Below are positions 4,364-12,519 of a DNA stretch of 64,000 nucleotides, one piece after another. The stretch's first letter is position 1; each line of letters starts with the position of its first letter. Below the pieces are notes generated by a model. That model saw only the letters and a program-made list of their open reading frames with translations, was not told the origin of the DNA and did not search any database. This DNA comes from Candidatus Eremiobacterota bacterium (GTDB taxonomy: Bacteria; Vulcanimicrobiota; Vulcanimicrobiia; Vulcanimicrobiales; Vulcanimicrobiaceae): assembly GCA_019235885.1 (NCBI GenBank), contig JAFAKB010000072.1, positions 1-64,000 on the forward strand, written 5' to 3'. A program made the position numbers and the translations under genes.

Positions 4364-5533
4364 TCAGGCGTTCGCCGCGCGCGAAGGGCGGTAGAGGTGC
4401 GCGCCGCCGTAGACCGGCAGGCCGCCGACGATCGTCGAGAGGACCTGGTACTCGTCGCTCCAGATCGAGAGGTCGGCGCGTTTCCCGGGCTCGATCGTGC
4501 CGAGCTCGCGGTCGAGGTTTAGCAGCCGCGCCGGGCTGCGCGTCGCGTTGGCGATCGCGGTCTCGAACGGGATGTCGGCGTAGATCATCAAGTTGCGCAC
4601 GGCTTGGTCCATCAGCAGCGCGCTGCCGGCGATCGTACCGTCCTCGGCGCGCACGACGCCGCCTTCGATGCGGTAGCCGCTCCCGGCCGGCGGCATGTTG
4701 TCGGTCGCCAGGACCAGCCGGTCGTGCAGCGTGCGGTAGAGCAAGTCGACCATCGCGGGCGCCACGTGGTAGCCGTCGCAGATCAATTGCACCGTCGTGC
4801 GCGACTCTTGGATGAACGCCGCGAGAATCGAAGGGTCGCGGTGGTCGAGCGGCGGCATCGCGTTGAACGCGTGCGTCACCGTGCGGAAGCCGAGCCCGAT
4901 CGCGAGCATCCCCTCGCGGTAGTGCGCCGCGGTGTGTCCCGCCGAGCACACGATGCCTTGGTCGAAGAAGAAGCGCGCGACCTCGTCGACGCCCTCGGCC
5001 TCCGGCGCCATCGTCACCAGCACCAGCGCGCCGCGGCAGGCTTCGATCATCTCCTGCGCGCGCTCCATCGTCGCCGGCAGGATCCACTCCGCGCGGTGGA
5101 CGCGGCGAAACTTCGGGTTCAGGAACGGCCCTTCGAAATGAATGCCCAGACACCGCGCGCCGATCGGATCGCCGGCTTCGACGAGCTGGTTTGCGGCTTC
5201 CGAGACTTCCGCCGCCGCGTGCATCATCGACTCCCACGGCGCGGTCATGATCCCGGCGCAATAACCGGTTGCTCCCTGCCGCGCGTACGCGCGCGCGGCG
5301 ACTTCGACCGCGGTTCCTTGATCGCGGTTGAACAGAAACTCGTCGGCGCCGTTGGTGTGGACGTCGATCAGACCCGGAGCGACGATCGCGCCGTCGGGCG
5401 GGCGCAGATCGGTAGGACCGTCCTCGGGAAGTATCCGTGCGATCCGCCCGCGGTCCACGGCGATCCGACCGTGGGCCAGCGTGCCGTTGCCGAGCGCGAT
5501 TCGCGCGGGCCCGAGGATGTAGGTGTCGGACAC
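4364..5533 (-). CDS. nagA: N-acetylglucosamine-6-phosphate deacetylase
   Basis: A 389-residue amidohydrolase of normal NagA length. Recognisable sites in order are DVHTNGADEF (the position where E. coli NagA has an LNG variant of the metal motif), HFEGPFLNPKFRRVH (metal-binding Glu and substrate loop), SAGHTAAHY, THAFNAM, DGYHV and ATDNMPPAG carrying the catalytic Asp. NagA hydrolyses GlcNAc-6-phosphate to glucosamine-6-phosphate and acetate in amino-sugar recycling. The canonical TDA is TDN here. No nagB, nagC or PTS component is adjacent; the co-directional neighbour is an ArsB-type transporter 16 bases downstream. Confidence 0.92.
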   Translation of the reverse strand: MSDTYILGPARIALGNGTLAHGRIAVDRGRIARILPEDGPTDLRPPDGAIVAPGLIDVHTNGADEFLFNRDQGTAVEVAARAYARQGATGYCAGIMTAPWESMMHAAAEVSEAANQLVEAGDPIGARCLGIHFEGPFLNPKFRRVHRAEWILPATMERAQEMIEACRGALVLVTMAPEAEGVDEVARFFFDQGIVCSAGHTAAHYREGMLAIGLGFRTVTHAFNAMPPLDHRDPSILAAFIQESRTTVQLICDGYHVAPAMVDLLYRTLHDRLVLATDNMPPAGSGYRIEGGVVRAEDGTIAGSALLMDQAVRNLMIYADIPFETAIANATRSPARLLNLDRELGTIEPGKRADLSIWSDEYQVLSTIVGGLPVYGGAHLYRPSRAANA

Positions 5534-5607
5534 GTCCGGTTCGATTCGGGGACGGCGCGTCGGCGACCCTCTTTCAAAATACTCAGGAAAAGCTAAGGAA
5601 CGTATGC

Positions 5608-8463
5608 CTACGAGCGGCTCCCGAAGAGCCGCCGAATGAACGATTTACGCTCGCTTGGTACGGTGTCGGACGGTCGCGGCGCCGCGGCTGCCAAGCGCTC
5701 GCGTTCGGCGCGCTCGCGCTCGCCGCGCGCGAGCCGCGCCATGTGCTCCTCGGCGTGCGACTCCAGCGTCGAGCGGAGGGCGAGCAGCTCGTTCCAGCCG
5801 GCCGGCGCGCGGCTCGCGTCGAGCGCTTCGCGGTACTCGAGCGTCGAGGTGGTGAAGATCCGCTGCGGAACGATCGCGCGCTCGCGCAGGTAGCGGTCGG
5901 CGAGCATCACGACGTTGCGGCGCTCGGCCGAGTCTTCGTGATCCGCCATCGTGTGCACGAACGCGATCGGCTTGCCGTCGCGCGCGATCTGCGCGTACAG
6001 CTCGAGCTCGCGGTCGTCGAGCTGGCGCGAGAAGAGCGCCAGGATCTCGCTCGCCGCCGACGCGGCGGCGCGCACGATCTCGCCGGCGAGCGGGAAGCCG
6101 GAGTCGAACGCCGGCGTGTGCACGAGCACGAGCTCGCGCGGGAGCGTCCACGGCGTCTCGATCAGGACCGGCGTGCGCGCCGCGGCCTCCAGCGTCTCGT
6201 CGAGCGCGATCTCGTTCCAGCCCGCGTCGTCGCCGAGCGCATACGCGCGATGGCGCTCGCCGTAGCGCACGTGCACCGGAAAGTGCAGCTCGACGTCGGC
6301 GCCTTCGTCGGCCAGCACGCGCGAGCCGGCGATCGCGTTGATCAAGCTCGACTTGCCGCGTTTGAAGGCGCCGATCACCGGGACGCGCCAGCGCTCGGGG
6401 CGCAGACCGTGCTCGTACGTGAGCGGATCGAAGCGCGCGCCGTCGGACGCCGCGACGCGCGCCGTCCCGGCGCGCGGGTCGAGCGGGATCGAGGGATCGG
6501 CGAGCTCGGCGCGTTCGGCGCGGCTCTCGCGCGCGAACGCTTCGGTGCGCGTCTCCACGCGCGTCGCGAGCATGCGCGCGGCGGATGCGCGCTCGCGCGC
6601 CGCGCGCGCGGCCGCGGCGCGGTCGTCGCCGGCGGCGTGCGCGGCGAGCGCGCGCTCGAGCGGACCGATCGCTTCGGCGCGCACGCGCGGCGCCAGCGCG
6701 GCGGCCCGCGCGCCGAGCCCGCGCGCGATCGTCTCGACCTGCGCGGCGATGCGGTCGACGTACGCTTCGAGCTGCGCGTCGAAGGCGGGATAGATCGTCG
6801 CGCCGAGATCGGCGAGCAGCTCGCGCTTCATGTACGCGTCCGGCGGTGCGGCGCCGAAGCGCTGCGCGACCGCGTCAACCAGCGCGACGGCGGGACCGCC
6901 GAGCGCGCCGAGGACGATCGAGCTGCGCAAGCCGGTCTCGATGTCGGTGCTCCACGCGCCGCTCGAGGCGTCGGCGCCGAACGCGCGCGCGGCGTCCTCG
7001 GTGACCGGAAAGCGTTCCGCCGCCAGCGCGTCGAGCAGCGGCGCCAGAACGCCGCCGCGGTCGGCCTCGCGCGCCGCGCCGACGACCGCAGCGGACGCGC
7101 TCTTCGCCTCCTCGCGCAGGCGTTTCGCAACCAGCTCGGCGGCGTCGGCGGCGAAGCGCCCGATCGCCGTAGCCAGCACGTCGTCGACCAGGATGTGCAG
7201 CTTCTGGCGGTCGCGCAAGCGCGCGACGTCGGCGACGTCGAACGAGCGCGCGATCGTGCGCGCCAGCGCCGCGCGCATCTCGGCGCCGCGCGCGCGCGTC
7301 GTCGCGGCGAGGTTCGCGCCGGTTGAGTCGAGCGCCGCGCGCGCGGCCTGCGCCGCCGCGTCGAACGCGTCGAGCGCGGGCGCGACCGCGTCGCGCCGCG
7401 CGCGCGCTTCGTCCGCCGGAGTTTCCAGCGCGGCTGCGTCGAACGCGAGCGCGTCGGCGGCGTGCGTCGCGACGCGGCGCGCTTCGGCGGCGGCGCGGCG
7501 CAGACGCGAGCGGCCCGTCGTCGCGACCAGCGAGGCGTCGAGCGCCTCGAGAAACGGCCGAAAGCGGCTCTGCTCGATCAGCGCGCCGTCGTGCTGCAGC
7601 AATCCTTCGGCGTACTCGCGCGCGGAGAGCGGAAAGACCGGCGTCCCGGGCGCGTGCTTCGCGGCCTGCGCGACGATGCGCTGCGCCGCCGCCTGCCAGG
7701 CCTCGGGCGCGTCCGCGCTCGGCGTGCCGGAACCTTCACGCATCCGCCACAAGTCGATCTTCGTCTGCACGATGAAGACCGACTCGATGTAGCGCCGGAC
7801 GATGCCGAGAAAGGACGCGTCGCCTTCGGTGAACGGCTGCTGCGTATCGATCAAATAGAGCACCGCGTCGGCGCCCGGCAGGTACGAAAGCGTCGCGCGG
7901 CGGTGCGCCGGGTTGATCGAGGCCAATCCCGGCGTGTCGGCGACGACGAACCCGCCTTTGAGAAAATCGGAGTCGACCGCGACGCGCACCAGCACCGGCG
8001 CGCCGGAGTCTTCTGCGGCCGTCGCGTCGTGCAGGTGCGCCTCTTCCGCGACCGCGACGAAGCGCGCCAGGTGCCCGAGCGGCACGCGCTCTTCGCGACC
8101 GTTCGCGTAGACCGCCGTCGCCGACTCGTCGGCGGCGTAGGCGAGCTCGGTGATCGTCGCGGTCGAGGGGTTGATGTCGGTCGCGAGCAGTCCGGCGATG
8201 CGCTTCCCGCCGGGACGCTCCTCGAACTCGACCTTGCCGAGCAGCGCGTTGAGCAGAAACGACTTCCCGCTCGAGAACTCGCCGACGACCGCGAGCACGA
8301 AGCGCCCGTCGCGCAGCCGCGCGATCGTGCGCGCCAGCGCTTCGGCGTCGTCCGCGCCGTCATGGCGGCGCGCGGCGTCCGCAGCGACCGCCGCGCGAAG
8401 CTCGTCGAGGCAGTCGGCGACGTCGTCGCGCGCGCGGCGATAGATCTCGAGCGGGTCGGTCAC
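5608..8463 (-). CDS. tandem dynamin-like GTPase (two G domains)
   Basis: A 951-residue protein made of two dynamin-like halves. The first G domain has G1 GEFSSGKS (about residues 61-68), a G2 threonine in the segment with STATITEL, G3 DTPGLAS and G4 TKID, followed by a long Ala/Arg/Glu-rich helical region. The second G domain (from about residue 690) has G1 GAFKRGKS, but G3 reads HTPAF instead of DTPG and G4 reads TMAD, so it may bind nucleotide differently. The C-terminus is basic (KSFIRRLFGSRS), as if membrane-binding. The layout resembles fused bacterial dynamins such as DynA, which act in membrane fusion or repair. I chose the GTG at 8463; a longer start at 8571 only adds an arginine-rich leader. 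Confidence 0.88.
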   Translation of the reverse strand: MTDPLEIYRRARDDVADCLDELRAAVAADAARRHDGADDAEALARTIARLRDGRFVLAVVGEFSSGKSFLLNALLGKVEFEERPGGKRIAGLLATDINPSTATITELAYAADESATAVYANGREERVPLGHLARFVAVAEEAHLHDATAAEDSGAPVLVRVAVDSDFLKGGFVVADTPGLASINPAHRRATLSYLPGADAVLYLIDTQQPFTEGDASFLGIVRRYIESVFIVQTKIDLWRMREGSGTPSADAPEAWQAAAQRIVAQAAKHAPGTPVFPLSAREYAEGLLQHDGALIEQSRFRPFLEALDASLVATTGRSRLRRAAAEARRVATHAADALAFDAAALETPADEARARRDAVAPALDAFDAAAQAARAALDSTGANLAATTRARGAEMRAALARTIARSFDVADVARLRDRQKLHILVDDVLATAIGRFAADAAELVAKRLREEAKSASAAVVGAAREADRGGVLAPLLDALAAERFPVTEDAARAFGADASSGAWSTDIETGLRSSIVLGALGGPAVALVDAVAQRFGAAPPDAYMKRELLADLGATIYPAFDAQLEAYVDRIAAQVETIARGLGARAAALAPRVRAEAIGPLERALAAHAAGDDRAAAARAARERASAARMLATRVETRTEAFARESRAERAELADPSIPLDPRAGTARVAASDGARFDPLTYEHGLRPERWRVPVIGAFKRGKSSLINAIAGSRVLADEGADVELHFPVHVRYGERHRAYALGDDAGWNEIALDETLEAAARTPVLIETPWTLPRELVLVHTPAFDSGFPLAGEIVRAAASAASEILALFSRQLDDRELELYAQIARDGKPIAFVHTMADHEDSAERRNVVMLADRYLRERAIVPQRIFTTSTLEYREALDASRAPAGWNELLALRSTLESHAEEHMARLARGERERAERERLAAAAPRPSDTVPSERKSFIRRLFGSRS

Positions 8464-8590
8464 GCGGCGCTCACGCCGGGCCGCTTCGCGACGGGCCGGA
8501 TGCCTTCCGTCAGCTTCTCCGCATCGGCGGAGCAGGAACCGAGCGCGGCGTCCCCGTACTCGCCAGCCCACGCTTCGACCGGGGTGTCTC

Positions 8591-9874
8591 TTGAGCGATC
8601 ATACGACGATTCCGCGCTATCTCCGAGGTCGCGGTGCGGCCCTCCATCTGCCGCGCAGCAAAGCCGCCCTTGACGAGTTCCATGCCAAGATCAAGCAGAA
8701 GGTGGACGCCGTCACGGCGGCCGGCGAGGGCGGGCAGTGGGATCCCACCGTGCAGGCGATGGCCGATCTCATCGCCGCGGATCCGATCATCCGGATGTAC
8801 GCCGAGGAGATGATCGTCCAGGTGCAGCAGCTCCCGAACCCGCCGCCCTCGACGGTGACGTCGGTCGAGCAAATGCTCGAAGCCCTCAACTACATCGTCA
8901 CGCTGGCGCCGGAGTACAATCCCGATCCGAGCCAGCGGAACGCGTTTCCGATGTCGTCGCTCTTCGCGTACCTGATGATGACGGTCGCCGGCGAGGCGCT
9001 GTTCCGCAACCGAGCCTACAACGCTTCGGTCCAGGCAATCCTGCAGCAGTGGTGCGCCTACCTCAACAGCCCCGACAGCACGAGCGTGCTCAATGACGGT
9101 TACTACGGCTGGATCTCGCCGCCCGCGATCACCGAGTTTCACCTCGACGACTTCATCTTCGACCCGAATGCGCCGTTCGGGGGCTGGACGTCGTACAACG
9201 ATTTCTTTCACCGCGAGATCCAGCCGCAGAACCGCCCGGTCGCGGGACCGGGCGATCCGACGGTCGTCGTCTCCGCCAACGACGGGAACCTGGTGTCGAT
9301 CGCGCAAGGCGTGCAGCGGACGGCTCAGTTCTGGCTCAAGGACGAGCCGTTCTCGCTGGCCGACATGCTCAACGACAGCTCGTTCGTCGACCGCTTCGTC
9401 GGCGGCGACGTCGTGCAGACGTTCTTGAGCGGCGCCAACTACCACCGCTGGCGCGCGCCGATCTCGGGCACCGTGGTTTCCACCGAGGTCGTGGGCGGCC
9501 TCATGTTCAGCGACGCGGAGGCAGCCGGTCTCGACCCGAACGCCGTGCTCTCGGAAGGCTACTACGCGTCGGTGAACACGCGCGGGCTCGTCTACATCGA
9601 CAGCGGCGATCCGGTGCTCGGCACGGTCTGCGTGATCCCGATCGGCATCACCGAGATTTCGTCGGTCACGATCACGGTGCAGCCGGGCCAAGTCATCGCG
9701 AAAGGCGACGAGCTGGGCTACTTCAGCTACGGCGGCTCCAGCATGTGCCTCGTCTTTCAACCCGGCGCCATCGCAAGCTACACGGTGGGCCCGCCGCCGC
9801 CGTACCCCATCGTCGATCCGAGCAGCGGGCCGCCGGTGGTCGCCAACGCGCAGATCGCCGTCGCGAACGTGTGA
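8591..9874 (+). CDS. phosphatidylserine decarboxylase-family protein, PsiD-like
   Basis: A 427-residue member of the pyruvoyl decarboxylase family. The N-terminal 160 residues (with DPIIRMYAEEMI and NYIVTLAPEYN) look like the extra domain seen in fungal PsiD-type proteins. The catalytic part follows: FFHREI, SANDG (triad Asp position), YHRWRAP and the self-cleavage region YGGSSMCLVF (Ser383/Ser384). Classical enzymes have YHRxH in the third motif; here the second His is Arg. The product could be phosphatidylethanolamine or an amine from an amino acid, since PsiD decarboxylates tryptophan. The start is TTG, chosen because the N-terminal domain begins there. No membrane helix is evident. It is divergent from the dynamin gene, so the two may share a promoter region. 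Confidence 0.82.
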   Translation: MSDHTTIPRYLRGRGAALHLPRSKAALDEFHAKIKQKVDAVTAAGEGGQWDPTVQAMADLIAADPIIRMYAEEMIVQVQQLPNPPPSTVTSVEQMLEALNYIVTLAPEYNPDPSQRNAFPMSSLFAYLMMTVAGEALFRNRAYNASVQAILQQWCAYLNSPDSTSVLNDGYYGWISPPAITEFHLDDFIFDPNAPFGGWTSYNDFFHREIQPQNRPVAGPGDPTVVVSANDGNLVSIAQGVQRTAQFWLKDEPFSLADMLNDSSFVDRFVGGDVVQTFLSGANYHRWRAPISGTVVSTEVVGGLMFSDAEAAGLDPNAVLSEGYYASVNTRGLVYIDSGDPVLGTVCVIPIGITEISSVTITVQPGQVIAKGDELGYFSYGGSSMCLVFQPGAIASYTVGPPPPYPIVDPSSGPPVVANAQIAVANV

Positions 9875-9889: not shown

Positions 9890-11242
9890 TCAGCCGCGGA
9901 TGACCGCCAGCGCCTCGTCGCGGTGCTGCTCCATCAGCGCGCGAGTGTCGCCTTCGACGTTGACGCGCAGCAGCGGCTCGGTGTTCGACTTGCGCACGTT
10001 GAGCCACCAGTCGGGATACTCGATCGTCACGCCGTCGAGGTGGTCGACCTTCGCGTCCGTGTAGTGCCGTTCGAGCCGCTGCATCTCGCGGTCGGCGTCG
10101 GCGACCGGCAAGTTGATCTCGCCCGAGCGGAAGCGCGTGTTGTACGGCGCGATCGCCTTCGTGATCGGGCCGTCGATCTCGCTGAAGAGATCGAGGCACT
10201 GCAGCAGCGCGATCATCCCCGAGTCGGCGAACCAGTTCTCGCGGAAGTAGAAGTGGCCGCTGTGCTCGCCGCCGAAGGGGATGTCTTCCTCGCGCATGAT
10301 CGGCTTGATCAGCGAGTGCCCGACAGGCGAGCGCCGCGGGATCCCGCCGTGCGCCGTGACCGCCTCGGGGACGCTGCGCGAGCAGATCAGGTTGTAGAGG
10401 ATCTTCGAGCCGGGATACTTCTTGAGCGTCGCGACGCCGACCGCGGCGGTGACGATGCTGCCGTCGGGGAAGCCGCCCTGCTCGTCGACGATGAACATCC
10501 GGTCGGCGTCGCCGTCGAACGCCGCGCCGAGATCGCAGTGCTGCTCCAGCACCGCTTTGCGCAGGGCGAGCTTGTTCTCGTCCTCGATCGGCGAAGCCGG
10601 ATGGTTCGGAAACGTTCCGTCCAGCTCGAAGTACAGCGGGACGACCTCGACCTGCGGCAGGTACTTGAACACGTACGGCACGGTCAGCCCGGCCATCCCG
10701 TTGCCGGCGTCGATCGCGATCTTGTAGGGCTTGATCTTGGCGACGTCGCGGATGAAGGAGACGCAGTGCTTGCCGAAGTCGTCGAGGATCTCGCGCGAGC
10801 CGACCTTCCCTTTGCGCGCCGGCTCCTTGAAGTCGCCGGCGAGCGCGAGGTCGCGCACCTCGCCGAGCCCCGTGTCGAGCGAGATCGCCTGCGCTTCCTC
10901 GCGGCAGAACTTCAGCCCGTTGTACTGCGCCGGGTTGTGCGAGGCCGTGATCATCACGCCGCCGTCGAAGCCGTAATGGCCGACCGCGAAGTAGAGCGCG
11001 TCGGTCGAGATCATCCCGATGTGCGTCACGTCGGCCCCGCCTTCGGTCGCGCCGCGGGTGAGCGCTTCGATCAGCGCCTCGCCCGAGGGCCGCATGTCGC
11101 GGCCGATACAGATGTTGGTGCGGCCCAGCGCCTGCACGAACGCGCGTCCGATCAGATAGGCGACCTCGGGGGTGAGCTGGGTTCCGACGATCCCGCGGAC
11201 GTCGTAGCTCTTGAAGATCGACGTGTCGAACGCGTTGGGCAT
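9890..11242 (-). CDS. phosphomannomutase/phosphoglucomutase
   Basis: A 450-residue alpha-D-phosphohexomutase. All four sites are visible: the phosphoserine loop TASHNP (MITASHNPAQYNGLK), the metal loop DGDADR, the sugar-binding loop GGEHSGH and the phosphate-binding loop RKSNTEP. Such enzymes interconvert hexose-6-phosphate and hexose-1-phosphate, supplying GDP-mannose or UDP-glucose precursors. This suits the exopolysaccharide locus further along, although that lies about 23 kb away. The ATG at 11242 (MPNAFDTSIFKSYDVRG) was chosen because the family starts just before the YDVRG motif. The gene converges on the PsiD-like gene and is divergent from the pseudopilin operon. Confidence 0.93.
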   Translation of the reverse strand: MPNAFDTSIFKSYDVRGIVGTQLTPEVAYLIGRAFVQALGRTNICIGRDMRPSGEALIEALTRGATEGGADVTHIGMISTDALYFAVGHYGFDGGVMITASHNPAQYNGLKFCREEAQAISLDTGLGEVRDLALAGDFKEPARKGKVGSREILDDFGKHCVSFIRDVAKIKPYKIAIDAGNGMAGLTVPYVFKYLPQVEVVPLYFELDGTFPNHPASPIEDENKLALRKAVLEQHCDLGAAFDGDADRMFIVDEQGGFPDGSIVTAAVGVATLKKYPGSKILYNLICSRSVPEAVTAHGGIPRRSPVGHSLIKPIMREEDIPFGGEHSGHFYFRENWFADSGMIALLQCLDLFSEIDGPITKAIAPYNTRFRSGEINLPVADADREMQRLERHYTDAKVDHLDGVTIEYPDWWLNVRKSNTEPLLRVNVEGDTRALMEQHRDEALAVIRG

Positions 11243-11343
11243 GGCCGGGCCGGTTTCGGAAGGCCGCCCCGCGACCCCTACGCTGTTGCGGCGAGCGGTC
11301 GCCGCGTGCATCGTTTCCGAGCGGCGCGGGCACCGCAGCCGGT

Positions 11344-12519
11344 GTGCGGGATTCACGGGCCGGCTTTTCGCTGATCGAGATCCTCGTCGCGGCCGCGGCG
11401 TTCGCGGTGGTCGCGTTCGGCGCGTTCGAGGTGGTGCGGCAGCTCGTCGCGAGCTCGCGCCAGCTCACCGCGCGGCATCTCGCCTACGCGTCGCTCGAGC
11501 GGCTCGGCGCGCAGCTGCGCGCCGAAGCGCGCACGGCGACCGCGATCTGGAGCAGCTCGCCGACCGCGGACGCGGCGCACGACGGCTGCGTGCAAGTCGA
11601 CTTCTTCACCGCCGACGCAGCCGGACCGAAGTTCTGGAGCTACCGCAACTTCCCGCACCACACGGATGCCGACGCAGCTCCCGGCGACGCGCTGGTGCGG
11701 CTCGCCGGGAGCGCGCCGCTCGCCGCCTGCGACGCGGCGCAAACCGGCGAGGTCGTGCTCTCGCACGTGCAGCCGCCGCTCGTCGTGAGCGCCCTCGCGG
11801 CGAACGCGCTCGCGGCGCACCTCGATCCGTACCTGCAGCAGCCCGATTCGCCGTTCGTCGCCGCGAGCGTTCCGGCGGTTGCGCCGGTCGCGCTCGGCGT
11901 GCTCGACGCGAGCGGGAACGCGGTGAGCGGCGCCAACACGACCCTCGAGCTGCGCGTCGACACGGCGGACGGATCGCGCGTCGTCGACTTGCTCCCCGGC
12001 GTCTTTCCGAACGGCTTCACCGAGGTGCTGCACTACACGTGCAGCGAGCGCTGCGACGCCGGCCACGACACCGCCGCACCGAAGACGCTCACCAGCTGCG
12101 CGCTGAGCTGGCAGCCGGGGTGGAGCACGTTCGTGCGCTGGAGCGACTACGCGACGAACGCCGACGGTTCGCTGACGTTCCCGAGCGGCTGGTTCATCGG
12201 CGGCAGCTTCGTCTTCACGTACTCGGGGACGCGCGCGTCCGACGGCGGAACCGACACGCTGGTCAAGCCGTACGCGGCGACGAACTGGGACGCGGCGCGC
12301 GACTACGCGGTGTTTCCGCCGGACCGTTCGGCGGCCGACGGATCGCTCGCGGGAAGCTTCGCGCCGTGGGACGTGCGCGCCGAGTCGCCGGCGGCGTGGC
12401 TCGCCGACTTCGCGCCGTATCTGGCCGCCGGAACGCGCGCGCCGGTCGACGCGGAGAAGCAGCGCTGCGACGCCGTGCAAGCGCAAGGAGCCAGCGGTGG
12501 ATTCTATGCGAACGGCTGA
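11344..12519 (+). CDS. type IV pilin-like (pseudopilin) protein, large
   Basis: A 391-residue protein with a short leader and a class III signal: cleavage expected after Gly in AGFSLIEILVAAAA, with Glu at mature position 5 and a hydrophobic helix of about 20 residues. The large Ala/Asp/Thr-rich C-terminal domain contains cysteines in pairs (HYTCSERCDAG) and is bigger than a major pilin, as in minor pseudopilins of the GspJ/PilW type. The start is GTG. It is first of a three-gene set; the next gene starts 23 bases before this stop. No pilus ATPase, inner-membrane platform or prepilin peptidase is nearby, so the assembly machinery must be elsewhere. Confidence 0.82.
   Translation: MRDSRAGFSLIEILVAAAAFAVVAFGAFEVVRQLVASSRQLTARHLAYASLERLGAQLRAEARTATAIWSSSPTADAAHDGCVQVDFFTADAAGPKFWSYRNFPHHTDADAAPGDALVRLAGSAPLAACDAAQTGEVVLSHVQPPLVVSALAANALAAHLDPYLQQPDSPFVAASVPAVAPVALGVLDASGNAVSGANTTLELRVDTADGSRVVDLLPGVFPNGFTEVLHYTCSERCDAGHDTAAPKTLTSCALSWQPGWSTFVRWSDYATNADGSLTFPSGWFIGGSFVFTYSGTRASDGGTDTLVKPYAATNWDAARDYAVFPPDRSAADGSLAGSFAPWDVRAESPAAWLADFAPYLAAGTRAPVDAEKQRCDAVQAQGASGGFYANG

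Follow-up and report, generated by a model that had tools for sequence, protein, structure and literature searches.

A predicted PsiD-like pyruvoyl-dependent decarboxylase with arginine at the second histidine position, inserted into a conserved operon of a Candidatus Eremiobacterota bacterium

Self-cleavage of the E. coli phosphatidylserine decarboxylase (PSD) depends mainly on His144, which is also required for decarboxylation; cleavage is nearly complete in the H147N and H147A mutants, and Tyr137 binds the lipid phosphate, a position at which 85% of PSDs have Tyr and 15% have Arg (PMC7952604). For the P. knowlesi PSD, the triad His and its cleavage role have been assigned to the His147 equivalent, according to the citation in PMC7952604, and the second His is therefore not dispensable in every PSD. 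Outside lipid synthesis, a published list of pyruvoyl-dependent arginine decarboxylases includes an A. oryzae enzyme (PMC12283126), and a GGSS motif has been called unique to tryptophan decarboxylases (PMC6121855), of which the Psilocybe enzyme PsiD is the one compared here.

The decarboxylase gene and its place in the PSD family

The window analysed is a stretch of 64,000 nucleotides from a Candidatus Eremiobacterota genome (contig JAFAKB010000072.1) that is assembled to 4.5 Mb in 105 contigs and is ~95% complete. On its forward strand (8591..9874), a gene with a TTG start encodes a 427-aa protein predicted to be the proenzyme of a PSD-family, PsiD-like pyruvoyl-dependent decarboxylase. Residues 52-181 (8744..9133, + strand) form a PSDC domain (Pfam PF12588; E 2.3e-33, 115.6 bits against a gathering score of 23.4) that PsiD and the A. 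oryzae arginine decarboxylase also have and that canonical Psd lacks. Residues 203-393 (9197..9769, + strand) form a PS_Dcarbxylase domain (PF02666; E 7.4e-37, 127.4 bits against a gathering score of 22). This is a genuine coding gene: a homologue with 65% protein identity occupies the same locus in a genome of the same genus (G007/L013), the two genes differ with dN 0.26 and dS 0.60 (NG86), and the fold is modelled with confidence (mean pLDDT 86.6, pTM 0.87). The model, made from an alignment of the window protein with proteins from fetched loci (L031 excepted), is weak only at residues 1-17 and 309-326. A phage or viral origin of the gene was rejected, as neither phage records nor viral contigs held a match to it.

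The motifs SANDG, YHRWRAP and GGSS that a sequence-only reading had reported for this gene are present letter for letter, within VSANDG, NYHRWRAP and YGGSSM. By alignment, and all on the + strand, Asp231 of SANDG (9281..9283) corresponds to E. coli PSD Asp90, His285 (9443..9445) to His144, the residue of autocleavage and decarboxylation, and Phe278 (9422..9424) to Tyr137, the lipid-phosphate contact. Arg288 (codon CGC, 9452..9454) stands at the place of the second His, E. coli His147. Ser383 (9737..9739) is the predicted pyruvoyl-forming residue, with a cut between Gly382 and Ser383 predicted by homology and from the chain end in PDB 8x4q. The first His is invariant in the alignment (103/103 rows), and the Ser383 column holds Ser in all rows with a letter there.

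Relatives came from a scan of 84,980 species genomes, which returned 514 matches; 80 were kept. We built two trees, a quick one and a second that was smaller and more careful, with the Arg column excluded from both. The window protein falls into a bacterial clade of 27 sequences from several phyla, marked by xDG and FSYGGS and here called NDG (97 SH-aLRT in the quick tree; 96 bootstrap and 95 SH-aLRT in the careful one). Its sister is a CE/CD clade that holds PsiD, the A. oryzae arginine decarboxylase (PDB 9jer) and proteins encoded on Enterobacter, Lactobacillus, Photobacterium and Plesiomonas plasmids; the first two lie nested within sequences from bacteria. A canonical PSD/Asd group lies apart from the window protein in both trees. 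The Asp231 column separates the two sister clades, being Glu in 59/59 CE rows and Asp in NDG, as it is in canonical PSD; positions 304, 329 and 379 also differ between them. The sequence-only reading had assigned the protein to the PsiD branch and proposed a phylogeny with PsiD and Psd as a check. That phylogeny puts it outside ordinary Psd, in a clade sister to the one that holds PsiD. In neither tree does it nest with PsiD, and the separate clade and Asp231 in place of Glu also set it apart from an arginine decarboxylase of the A. oryzae type.

Structural matches agree with a PSDC + PSD protein of the PsiD type. Searching the PDB by sequence gave 137.6 bits to PsiD (8x4q, residues 23-382), 111.7 bits to 9jer and 31 bits to E. 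coli PSD, the last covering part of the C-terminal domain. The predicted model likewise matched the folds of PsiD (E 7e-23) and 9jer (E 1e-19), and that of E. coli PSD at E 3e-10 over fewer columns. Both domains score above their gathering thresholds, and the first His and the Gly-Ser pair are kept. Judged from these domains, matches and trees, the part of the earlier assignment that is supported is the protein type, not a lipid-making Psd: "PsiD-like" is fair for the domain layout and "PsiD branch" is not. GGSS occurs in the window protein, in 17/27 NDG rows and in 2 CE rows, and therefore cannot indicate tryptophan as the substrate; we rejected it as diagnostic of tryptophan decarboxylases because it is common in bacterial members that have no assay.

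Could the protein nevertheless be the genome's own phosphatidylethanolamine (PE)-making enzyme, or decarboxylate another phospholipid, with an unusual N-terminal domain? It belongs to PF02666, the PSD equivalog models of NCBIfam match it with scores below cut-off, and no second PSD-family (PF02666) gene was found in the ~95% complete source genome, leaving it the sole member there. Against this stand its position outside the canonical group in both trees and the residue at the phosphate contact: canonical PSD rows have Tyr (2) or Arg (3) at the Tyr137 position, whereas the window protein has Phe, as do PsiD, 9jer and 24/27 NDG members. The sole CDP-alcohol phosphotransferase of the source genome reached 31.4 bits against a pssA cut-off of 107, in a look-up that covered this enzyme type as distinct from the phospholipase-D-like PssA of E. 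coli. Within that scope and the ~95% completeness, a PE pathway is not evident from the gene content. Among 60 related genomes, three carried a PSD-family match (the window's own, G007 and G028) and 57 had none; the three that did were without a canonical Psd, and the G028 protein (L093) is of an "ADS" type, with PsiD as its nearest match by score. A PSDC domain is found in 2/149 genomes of the phylum, hence this is no core lipid gene, and the gene interrupts an operon that relatives keep intact (see below). Taken with these points, a role in phospholipid synthesis is highly improbable.

The residue at the second histidine position

The same reading had taken Arg288 as a sign that chemistry or maturation could differ. 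Over the 103 aligned rows, the second-His column holds His in 86, Arg in 10, Asn in 6 and Ala in 1, counts in which other residues may be underestimated since one of the two search patterns admitted only His, Asn or Arg there. Arg is present in 9/27 NDG members; by record title, those besides the window protein come from Gammaproteobacteria, Pyrinomonadaceae, Pirellulaceae, Phycisphaerales, Thermoanaerobaculia, Bradyrhizobium, Streptomyces and Gemmatimonadales. Within the clade, this column requires at least 6-7 changes, and a grouping of all Arg members into one clade is rejected (p-AU 9e-6). The closest relatives of the window protein (L013, L030, L015 and L017) all have His, the nearest of them reading YHRWH, so by parsimony the Arg of the window protein is a local change. 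L030, from Nannocystis exedens, reads HRWH, and the Bradyrhizobium sp. Ghvi protein (L022) reads HRWR. No column of the 103-row alignment cleanly splits Arg from His members, and we therefore rejected a compensating residue for Arg288. A sequencing slip is still possible for this one genome, and Arg in eight other members of the clade speaks against it.

Evidence from characterized enzymes bears on the consequence of the change. The A. oryzae arginine decarboxylase, solved also with arginine bound (PDB), has Asn at the second-His column. Its entry 9jer is deposited as a 462-aa chain that ends in GGS and a 42-aa chain that starts one residue before THCL, and the enzyme is therefore cleaved. Together with the cleavage of E. 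coli H147A and H147N, this indicates that a change of the second His is tolerated. Recurrent among relatives, the swap to Arg is probably harmless; altered maturation of the window protein is unlikely, because Arg recurs, 9jer is cleaved with Asn, E. coli His147 is mutable and the first His is invariant. The recurrence of Arg thus goes against the suspicion of odd chemistry.

The repeated appearance of Arg at one column could also be read as adaptive tuning. Arg288 would then be a functional switch, the loss of the second His slowing or blocking self-cleavage or opening a new reaction or substrate, for example one with a carboxylate side chain bound by Arg288, and the assignment of the equivalent His of P. 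knowlesi PSD to cleavage, as PMC7952604 cites it, fits such a role. Among close relatives, however, members with Arg are intermixed with members with His and no other column covaries, and both the Asn enzyme with arginine bound and the E. coli His147 mutants cleave; we consider a switch unlikely.

An insertion into a conserved operon and the neighbourhoods of relatives

The decarboxylase gene lies between a long gene for a dynamin-like GTPase (5608..8571, - strand), from which it diverges, and a phosphomannomutase/phosphoglucomutase gene (9890..11356, - strand), with which it converges. In five genomes of the same genus (L115-L119), the phosphomannomutase and dynamin-like genes are head to tail and followed by NagA, and between the first two there is no PSD-like gene and no space for one. 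Phosphomannomutase, dynamin and NagA make up a gene set conserved in the genus. The window and L013 have the decarboxylase gene between the first two, on the opposite strand; most members of the genus lack this gene. It is an accessory, single cargo gene inserted into a conserved operon. GC is lower over the decarboxylase gene (~0.66) than over the dynamin-like gene (0.70-0.79), but the phosphomannomutase gene has a similarly low value, and base composition is therefore a poor guide by itself. The remaining neighbours in the window are NagA and a citrate/arsenite-type transporter. Neither an antiporter nor an amine pathway adjoins the gene in the window, and we rejected the operon as a guide to the substrate, as none of the neighbours suggests an amine.

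Among named relatives, the nearest is Candidatus Eremiobacterota bacterium RYN_345 (L013; Vulcanimicrobiota), which appears to be the same genome as G007 of the window's genus, having the same 602-bit protein (L004/L013) and a phosphomannomutase gene at about 8796 on both. L013 also carries, at 5191-5600, a second, broken stretch that repeats the 3' part of the gene and the DNA downstream of it, ~2 kb after the intact copy. This is a duplication within the same insertion site.

Between the window and G007/L013, the decarboxylase is 65% identical whereas the flanking genes are 84-88% identical, and its dN/dS is 0.43 compared with about 0.2 in the neighbours. A shared old insertion that evolves fast and two acquisitions at one spot are both possible, and the faster divergence would also fit relaxed constraint. 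On this last account, the gene could be a remnant in decay or already inactive, a cargo gene that has lost the maturation of its protein, with Arg288 as one of its lesions; the partial copy in L013 and the patchy presence in the genus would suit it as well. Yet the open frame is full-length with dN/dS below 1, the catalytic residues other than the second His are intact in a confidently modelled fold, and eight further NDG members combine Arg with a full-length frame, which makes decay very unlikely.

Relatives differ in their surroundings. Members of the sister clade adjoin amino acid/polyamine antiporters in Enterobacter and Photobacterium. One island of a conjugative Enterobacter plasmid (L120:3514-25029) combines EvgA, YfdX, aspartate 4-decarboxylase, an antiporter with a PSD-family gene, and CadBA. 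We take this to be the usual layout of decarboxylase-antiporter acid resistance; it suggests that the PSD-family gene there is a plasmid-borne acid-resistance decarboxylase under a misleading name.

Within the NDG clade, four actinomycete genes (L028, L029, L031 and L034) adjoin genes for MbnB/TglH/ChrH, DUF2063 and ferritin-like proteins, and the Bradyrhizobium gene adjoins ATP-grasp genes; the other NDG loci have no common neighbour. A gene for a Cys-rich protein is also near the NDG-type gene at L028:7866-12895, and likewise in the other three actinomycete loci, which are possibly RiPP clusters with a decarboxylase. The 293-aa genes found 3' of the decarboxylase in L022 and L028 proved unrelated, and kinship between them was rejected. 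Since actinomycete members lie near RiPP genes and the Bradyrhizobium one near ATP-grasp genes, the NDG clade might be a further branch of PSD-fold decarboxylases that act on natural-product or peptide substrates and not on free arginine or tryptophan, with repeated His-to-Arg changes tuning substrate or maturation; we hold this to be doubtful.

A separate arrangement was seen in three lineages (L014:8001-10437, L018:352-3166 and L027:1460-3965), where a second PSD-family gene directly adjoins the NDG-type gene, as if the two worked as a pair. The second gene is of the type ADS/ADC...YHRxH...GGSD, and a PSDC domain was not found in it. A gene of this second type is also nearby in L043.

Proposed function and comparison with known decarboxylases

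We favour, with reasonable though not high confidence, an amine-forming pyruvoyl-dependent decarboxylase of an amino acid or an amino-acid-derived small molecule that would cleave itself at Gly382-Ser383. The literature searched held no assay of an NDG-clade protein, and self-cleavage, the pyruvoyl group and the substrate class (an amino acid or amino-acid-derived natural product) therefore rest on homology. The protein would be a soluble enzyme of the PSDC + PSD-domain kind. Its 427-aa proenzyme would cut itself between Gly382 and Ser383, with His285 and Asp231 activating Ser383, to give a large beta chain and, with a pyruvoyl cap, an alpha chain of 45 residues. A small amino-acid-type substrate would bind through its amino group to the pyruvoyl group as a Schiff base, and loss of CO2 would leave the amine; Arg288 would stand in for a second His needed neither for maturation nor for catalysis. 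An amine, the product proposed from the letters of the gene, is by homology the likeliest one. As far as is visible, the mechanism is ordinary, and no single surprising mechanism is implied.

The gene has some use because it draws attention to a family of poorly named bacterial enzymes. Its members are routinely named "phosphatidylserine decarboxylase family protein", a name that masks a broad bacterial set (the 514 matches of the genome scan) of likely amine-making enzymes. The recurrent Arg or Asn at the second His amounts to a natural experiment that can show which residues are necessary for pyruvoyl maturation.

Among known systems, PsiD (PDB 8x4q, 8zia) shares with the window protein the PSDC + PSD layout, the overall fold (TM 0.78 by target), the first His, the Gly-Gly-Ser cleavage site and Phe at the Tyr137 position. 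It differs in its 28% identity, in belonging to the CE clade, in Glu for Asp231 and in a second His that is kept (YHRWH); unlike PsiD, the window locus has no psilocybin-type cluster. The A. oryzae arginine decarboxylase (PDB 9jer, 9jf5, 9jfn) resembles the window protein in its layout of two domains and in its fold (TM 0.71 by target), retains the first His and GGS, is deposited as two chains and likewise lacks the second His (Asn), but it has Glu for Asp231 and belongs to the CE clade. Bacterial proteins annotated as PSD family from Enterobacter, Photobacterium, Lactobacillus and Burkholderia plasmids have the same domains at 32-38% identity and belong to the CE type; unlike the window gene, some of their genes are coupled to acid-resistance genes and to antiporters of amino acids or polyamines. 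E. coli Psd (PDB 7cnw, 6l06) shares the PF02666 catalytic domain, the Asp-His-Ser core and the G-S cleavage site, but it lacks PSDC and has an amphipathic lipid-binding N-terminus, Tyr137 for the phosphate, YHRVH and a separate branch in the tree.
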